Shown in pieces: positions 11,217-11,518 of a stretch of 41,852 bases of DNA. The notes beneath the pieces are model-generated. The model saw only the letters and a list, made by a program, of their open reading frames with translations, did not search any database and was not told where the DNA came from. The stretch is from Bacteroidales bacterium (lineage in GTDB: Bacteria; Bacteroidota; Bacteroidia; Bacteroidales; VadinHA17), in NCBI GenBank assembly GCA_003141415.1, contig PLLX01000181.1, forward strand, positions 3,034 through 44,885, in the 5' to 3' direction. Numbering within the stretch: the stretch's first letter is position 1; the number at the start of each line of letters is the position of its first letter. Both the position numbers and the translations under genes were made by a program.

Positions 11217-11329
11217 TTTTTATTAAGAAGGGTGAAGAGATTAGGCTCTGCGAAACCCTGGCAACCAATCCTGAAGTTTAGGAGAACGGTGCCAAAACCT
11301 AATCCCGGAAAGACGGGAGATGATAAAAA
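11217..11329 (+). ncRNA. SAM-I (S-box) riboswitch
   Basis: The segment fits the SAM-I aptamer. P1: TTTTTATTA (11217-11225) with TGATAAAAA (11321-11329), nine pairs including one G-U. P2 with kink-turn: GGGTGAAGAG...CTCT followed by GCGAAACCC. The conserved GGCAACC comes next, then a P3 hairpin with TCCT...AGGA, GGTGCCAAAACC, and P4 CCCG-GAAAGA-CGGG followed by AGATGATAA. The family represses methionine and SAM genes when SAM binds. It lies between the promoter and metY in the sense orientation, so it should control metY-hom-metH-metF. No U-tract terminator follows directly, so control may be translational or may act through the downstream leader ORF and hairpins. Confidence 0.9.
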
Positions 11330-11344
11330 TTTAACACGGAAACC

Positions 11345-11413
11345 ATGAATTCAATTCATTTAACACACAACAACTTTATCATGCCGCTCATGCCTATGTG
11401 CATGTGCCGGTAA
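11345..11413 (+). CDS. Candidate Met/Cys-rich leader peptide (22 aa)
   Basis: An ATG ORF of 22 codons lies between the SAM riboswitch and metY. Its product ends NNFIMPLMPMCMCR and then TAA: four Met and two Cys among the last ten residues (five Met and two Cys in all). That is far more Met/Cys than chance would give and is what a ribosome-stalling attenuator for methionine and sulfur genes would look like. The start codon lies in a palindrome (ATGAATT-C-AATTCAT, 11345-11359). The stop region CCGGT (11407-11411) can pair with ACCGG at 11452-11456. I do not recall a named family for it. Translation is unproven. Confidence 0.6.
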   Translation: MNSIHLTHNNFIMPLMPMCMCR

Positions 11414-11451
11414 TAGCTTTGATTTGCAATCAGTCATTTTCTCAGTTAACA

Positions 11452-11492
11452 ACCGGAAATCCTTGAGAGATACCTGTATCTGTCTGTCCGGT
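11452..11492 (+). promoter_or_regulatory. Candidate attenuator hairpin before metY
   Basis: ACCGGA (11452-11457) pairs with TCCGGT (11487-11492), enclosing a second stem AGATA-CCTG-TATCT (11468-11481). The 5' arm could instead pair with CCGGT at the end of the leader ORF (11407-11411), so the two structures exclude each other, and a ribosome on the leader ORF would decide between them. The following tract is A/T-rich but not a clean U-run, so this may be an RBS or initiation control rather than a terminator. Confidence 0.45.
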
Positions 11493-11518
11493 ATTGATAA
11501 AATTTAAAATAAAATAAA

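Follow-up and report, generated by a model that had tools for sequence, protein, structure and literature searches.

Results

A SAM-I aptamer and a short ORF precede the metY-hom-metH-metF operon

The analysed stretch of Bacteroidales DNA (41,852 nt, hereafter the window) carries on its forward strand four genes of sulfur amino acid metabolism, all of which were matched by Pfam in the order that an initial annotation had read from the sequence. The first gene of the operon is metY (11519..12823), encoding a Cys/Met metabolism PLP enzyme of the O-acetylhomoserine sulfhydrylase type (PF01053, E 1.3e-127). It is followed by hom for homoserine dehydrogenase (12826..14079; PF00742/PF03447), metH for the B12-dependent methionine synthase (14130..17780; PF02574, PF00809, PF02607, PF02310 and PF02965) and metF for methylenetetrahydrofolate reductase (17793..18746; PF02219). 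Upstream of these genes and on the same strand a SAM-I (S-box) riboswitch aptamer is present at 11217..11329, which matches RF00162 over its full length (1-108) with 71.6 bits and exceeds the curated gathering score of 44.4 bits. A genome-wide search of the source genome revealed no second SAM-I. The first ATG after the aptamer, 15 nt past its end, opens a leader ORF of 22 codons, MNSIHLTHNNFIMPLMPMCMCR* (11345..11413, forward strand; the asterisk denotes the stop codon), of which the last 12 codons, FIMPLMPMCMCR (11375..11410), are rich in Met and are regarded as a putative control region. Between the leader ORF and metY a hairpin ACCGGA...TCCGGT is predicted (11452..11492, forward strand), which is not followed by a U-tract. 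The annotated succession of SAM-I, short ORF, hairpin and metY was therefore recovered in each of its elements by Rfam, ORF analysis and folding.

A promoter-like site, TTTG-N19-TACCTTTG (11145..11175, forward strand), lies 42 nt 5' of the aptamer, and we take its consensus to be of the Bacteroidota type. The pattern occurs five times in the window, where 1.8 occurrences would be expected, and the assignment of the site as a promoter is suggestive only. The cysteinyl-tRNA synthetase gene cysS is located divergently on the reverse strand (9159-10631), about 590 nt upstream of the aptamer, and an inverted repeat AACTTCAGATAAAACGG...CCGTTTTATCTGAAGTT was observed at 10788-10850 between cysS and the metY leader.

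The Rfam scan of the window yielded SAM-I and SAM-II only and no match to a T-box. The SAM-II riboswitch (20453-20514, reverse strand; RF01726, 53 bits) is found about 9 kb from SAM-I, 5' of metK (19047-20390, reverse strand). In the window's genus SAM-I was found in 38 of the 43 and SAM-II in 34 of the 40 genomes searched, both often on one contig. No species with both classes had been reported in 2007 (PMC2258182).

Met codons at the end of the leader ORF are conserved in the genus

The leader ORF was conserved in about 35 congener leaders. In the 32 distinct sequences, ATG codons counted from the stop were found at position -3 in 32/32, at -5 in 32/32, at -7 in 31/32 and at -10 in 25/32. 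The Met codons at -3, -5 and -7 are near invariant, and the N-terminal codons are variable. At -4 and -2 the Cys of the window gives way to Arg, Asp, Gly, Tyr, Trp or Gln in congeners. Of the Met/Cys-rich leader peptide that had been annotated, the Met part thus holds at the window locus and the Cys part is weak there, although it is strong in other clades. Because of this variation, sensing of Cys is well supported only in those clades and in one congener paralogue (L292), in which the leader ORF ends SMIMCCMCCCCMC* upstream of a paralogue of metY.

A pairing of TTTATCAT in the ORF with ATGATAAA in P1, which could act as an anti-P1, is possible in the window; inspection showed it to be broken in congeners and it was therefore treated as chance. 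A scan of the phylum for DNA encoding MCMCR alone returned mostly chance matches inside genes, in other frames.

Met enrichment follows the reading frame across the order

Leaders were collected from the order (n=91 SAM-I leaders), the window's family, the class and phylum, and from 80 named metY loci. In the order an ATG is present at +9..+15 from the aptamer end in 69/91 SAM-I leaders, which gives a sharp spike. In seven of the order's leaders it is metH itself that starts after the aptamer, at +11..+20, and the remaining ATGs of the spike open short ORFs. The ORFs with a Met/Cys tail start mostly at +8..+16. In the short ORFs Met makes up 16.1% of the last 12 codons and 0.9% of the remaining codons, and in the other two frames of the same stretch it makes up 0.8% and 1.1%. 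When one leader was taken per family, which lowers the effect of relatedness, the in-frame ATG count was 58.5 vs 2.1 and 4.3 in the other frames (360 codons). A short ORF at +5..+16 was detected in 30 of 45 families, in 26 of which its tail contains two or more Met/Cys codons. A reverse-strand control scan at the 80 named metY loci gave nothing.

The window ORF tail can itself form a hairpin, with a stem CATGC/GCATG and flanking GCCG/CGG (11382..11412, forward strand), in folds of the window and of congeners (z = -2.0 for the window tail; mean z -1.7). This raises the question whether the Met codons are merely a by-product of a conserved CATGC...GCATG structure in an RNA that is not translated. 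Such an origin would agree with the Pro codon CCT at -6, for which no synonymous change occurs in the genus, and with the strong preference for a pyrimidine after the tail ATGs (C or T in 107/123 at the SAM-I loci of the order). At the same loci tail Arg codons are CGC or CGA in 61/83, whereas AGA and CGT are used elsewhere in the same ORFs. The biases of the Met and Arg codons indicate that a constraint at the nucleotide level is added to the one on codons. However, the length of the leader ORFs ranges from 18 to 48 codons, and throughout this range the Met codons remain in the frame of the first ATG near +12, with the other frames at background, which an untranslated RNA motif cannot explain. 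Moreover, Cys-run tails such as TGTTGCTGCTGT do not have this hairpin and vary synonymously. The by-product explanation is largely refuted by the frame specificity and we hold it to be highly improbable.

Cys runs replace Met clusters in Sphingobacteriales and Cytophagales

Upstream of metY in Pedobacter, Mucilaginibacter, Pontibacter, Indibacter and other taxa SAM-I was confirmed by Rfam, and the short ORF of these leaders starts at +5..+11 and ends in a run of Cys codons (NMCCCMC*, CICMCCCC*, MYMCCCCMC*, GPCCCC* and similar); CICMCCCC* is an example of such tails in Mucilaginibacter and other Sphingobacteriales/Cytophagales. Pure Cys-run ends also occur in some Bacteroidales leaders (L145, L167 and L169). 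A further sample consisted of the metY loci of the genus containing the Mucilaginibacter oryzae locus. Among 34 distinct Mucilaginibacter ORFs the Cys codons TGT and TGC interchange (21/11 in the last codon and 14/18 in the one before), and divergence is nearly complete in codons 9-20, counted from the end, while the tail is conserved. This implies selection on the tail codons and not on the rest of the peptide, which is expected of a leader peptide. Codon identity is thus maintained while other codons and synonymous sites drift, as a leader-peptide attenuator requires.

We regard it as practically certain that SAM-I followed by a Met/Cys-tailed leader ORF is a real and conserved arrangement. 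The alignment of met leaders across Bacteroidota, which had been suggested along with the initial annotation, revealed conservation of the ORF and of its Met/Cys end, with synonymous exchange of TGT and TGC; a lack of conservation among relatives with the same riboswitch, named beforehand as evidence against the proposal, was not encountered.

The composition of the tails could also mean that the nascent chain is the sensor. The ribosome would then be arrested by the peptide inside its exit tunnel in response to a ligand, which could be Met, SAM or a thiophilic metal, for instance Cu(I), and tRNA charging at these codons would play no part. M-x-M is frequent, with Arg or Cys next to it and Arg near the stop, which is more regular than plain runs of control codons, and Cu(I) is typically bound by MxM and by clusters of Cys. 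Yet the distance of the tail Met codons from the stop varies from 2 to 10 codons among the leaders of the order, pure Cys runs take the place of Met clusters in some leaders, the residues that precede the tail are unconstrained and the genes downstream belong to sulfur amino acid metabolism, not to copper. Arrest by the nascent peptide is consequently judged unlikely.

The tailed ORF is associated with metY

For the SAM-I leaders from the order and from the family, the type of the downstream gene was assigned by short motifs. An ORF with a Met/Cys tail was present before metY in 60 of 68 of these leaders, before genes of the aspartokinase/homoserine dehydrogenase type in 14/16, before metH in 8/33 and before genes of the cystathionine gamma-synthase type in none of four. 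In two leaders SAM-I is located 2 nt before metH, with no leader peptide (L212 and L216). In six others (L270, L272, L280, L281, L283 and L294) it precedes by about 95 nt, likewise with no leader peptide, a gene family with the motif ..EINEKIRxGKAVVLTAEQVS.., presumably DUF39/homocysteine biosynthesis protein.

Three metY leaders keep the peptide in the absence of an Rfam match to SAM-I; L044 and L047 are from close relatives of the window and the third is L325/L387. This indicates that the peptide can exist alone, and judging from L044 and L047 it can outlive the riboswitch or work independently. A general version of the peptide lacking SAM-I was rejected, as only 1-3 of the 19 metY genes of the order without SAM-I have one, with 1 in the control.

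In the sample of the class and phylum most SAM-I leaders are devoid of a Met/Cys-tailed ORF. In many of the class leaders the gene that follows is not metY, and metY leaders of the Chlorobi type have no such ORF. SAM-I without the tail was found in some leaders, namely in the Algoriphagus, Chlorobi and Flavobacteriaceae samples. In Algoriphagus the ORF itself is kept at +9, with few Met/Cys codons. Its persistence there could be taken to mean that the ORF only aids expression, as a translation enhancer, by protecting the mRNA or through re-initiation, and senses nothing, SAM-I being the sole sensor. Leader ORFs can indeed raise expression by re-initiation (PMC4833913), but this works over short distances, with a peak at 11-14 bp in Bacteroidetes (PMC4833913), whereas the gap from the stop codon to the gene is mostly 70-270 nt here. 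A mere aid to expression would also leave the Met/Cys tails and their association with metY unexplained, and we find this account very unlikely.

Hairpins follow the leader ORF, mostly with no intrinsic terminator

The spacer of the window is weakly structured (z = -1.6), and its ACCGGA...TCCGGT hairpin is statistically weak when taken alone. By inspection, the pre-metY hairpin is present in a shifted register, CCTG...CAGG, in L273, L274 and L231. In Mucilaginibacter two tandem hairpins follow the stop codon (mean z -2.6, with 24 of 34 below -2). The first begins about 3-10 nt past the stop, where it could be reached by a ribosome stalled on the last codons, and several standard pair types occur at some positions of its outer stem. 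Most of the predicted folds leave the initiation region of metY unpaired.

An intrinsic terminator with a U-tract was not found between the leader ORF and metY in the window. Among 127 leaders 19 were flagged for an intrinsic terminator after the short ORF, mostly misplaced, so that such terminators are not a general feature. Mutually exclusive hairpins including a terminator, by which a leader-peptide attenuator is recognized, were not seen in the window leader either. A three-hairpin switch resembling that of trp, composed of the ORF tail, a middle segment and the pre-metY hairpin, was folded with the ribosome at different positions and dismissed as inconsistent across congeners. A consensus fold of mixed congener subgroups was of no use, these being too divergent (near-zero energy). 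The leader may act like an attenuator, but the U-tract terminator of classical transcription attenuators of the trp/his type is absent from the window leader and from most leaders.

Discussion

The leader as a probable series of two sensors

Riboswitches whose aptamer is followed by a start codon at no more than 15 nt were classed as directly controlling translation initiation, and for SAM-I the RBS was described to lie in the 3' strand of P1 (Barrick and Breaker, 2007; PMC2258182). The ATG of the window leader at +15 falls within this distance. Because this ATG is positioned where SAM-I directly controls translation initiation, it is most likely the leader ORF that the riboswitch gates, and the gap between aptamer and ORF is too short to hold a terminator. 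The ORF in turn is short, lies upstream of the operon and has in frame a tail rich in codons for Met, the regulated amino acid. From this spacing and the in-frame selection on Met and Cys codons we infer that two sensors are probably placed in series, with SAM-I acting on the leader ORF and not on a terminator of its own.

In the first stage P1 of SAM-I, which ends about 9-16 nt before the leader ATG, would close in the presence of SAM and block the entry of ribosomes, so that the leader ORF would be translated only at low SAM. In the second stage the ribosome would meet the cluster of Met codons at the end of the ORF, or of Met and Cys codons in other clades. If charged tRNA is short, it would stall and cover the start of the structure after the stop codon, and metY-hom-metH-metF would be expressed; if charged tRNA is plentiful, it would finish translation, the structure would form and expression would be low. 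In Mucilaginibacter the first hairpin would be held open by stalling of the ribosome and would form in a leader that is either untranslated or fully translated. The operon would then be fully on only when SAM and Met-tRNA (or Cys-tRNA) are both low. The output step could consist of termination by Rho, decay of the mRNA or a less conspicuous switch in structure.

On the sequence evidence we consider it likely that SAM gates the leader peptide and that this peptide senses Met, or also Cys in other clades. The broader proposition, that it constitutes a two-input (AND) gate that is widespread in Bacteroidota, in which the riboswitch controls initiation at an attenuator leader and SAM and Met-tRNA/Cys-tRNA are read in series with no intrinsic terminator, seems to us slightly better than evenly balanced. 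The original idea that one leader reads both SAM and the supply of Met/Cys is borne out in so far as the pairing is real, conserved, codon-specific and in agreement with a leader peptide; its Cys component is weak at the window locus.

If this is true, a riboswitch can act on a translated sensor instead of on the gene itself, and end-product and precursor signals are combined in series by one leader. It would account for the long distance between SAM-I and metY in these genomes, which is mostly 180-350 nt. It also points to amino acid control sensed by the ribosome in Bacteroidota. Cultured carriers exist among the strains of Pedobacter, Mucilaginibacter, Pontibacter and Indibacter.

Comparison with known systems

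The annotation knew of no described example of this pairing, and none came to light in the open PMC literature (subscription journals and preprints lying outside this scope), where no description of SAM-I with a leader peptide or of Met/Cys leader peptides in Bacteroidota was found. The pairing therefore appears to be undescribed. Leaders with two inputs are known from the Salmonella mgtA leader with mgtL and from the ubiG operon of Clostridium acetobutylicum, where an S-box is combined with a T-box. In both, as proposed here, an RNA sensor works together with another one that responds to translation or to tRNA charging, but the ligands are different or a T-box stands in place of a translated peptide.

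With the SAM-I riboswitches that directly control translation initiation (RF00162; PMC2258182) the present element shares the aptamer and the short distance, about 15 nt at most, from P1 to a start codon; here this codon opens a short leader ORF and not the biosynthetic gene. The Sinorhizobium meliloti metA leader, according to its abstract (PMC9373788), likewise has a SAM riboswitch beside an upstream AUG, the real start being farther downstream; it differs in that the riboswitch is SAM-II and a terminator lies between two in-frame AUGs, and that abstract mentions no Met/Cys leader peptide or input from tRNA charging. Short ORFs with tandem control codons upstream of genes for the same amino acid are represented by uORFC-8-2 before cysS in Rhodobacterales (PMC8632094), which has an intrinsic terminator and no riboswitch, whereas in the present leaders SAM-I stands before the ORF and a terminator with a U-tract was not found. 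A short upstream ORF with tandem control codons is also the form of the leader peptides described for amino acid genes of Actinobacteria (PMC1262725), and these two reports are the closest on Cys leader peptides. For B. thetaiotaomicron it was remarked that short ORFs resembling leader peptides occur in long 5' UTRs (PMC7366714). The element thus joins two devices of known kinds in a new way.
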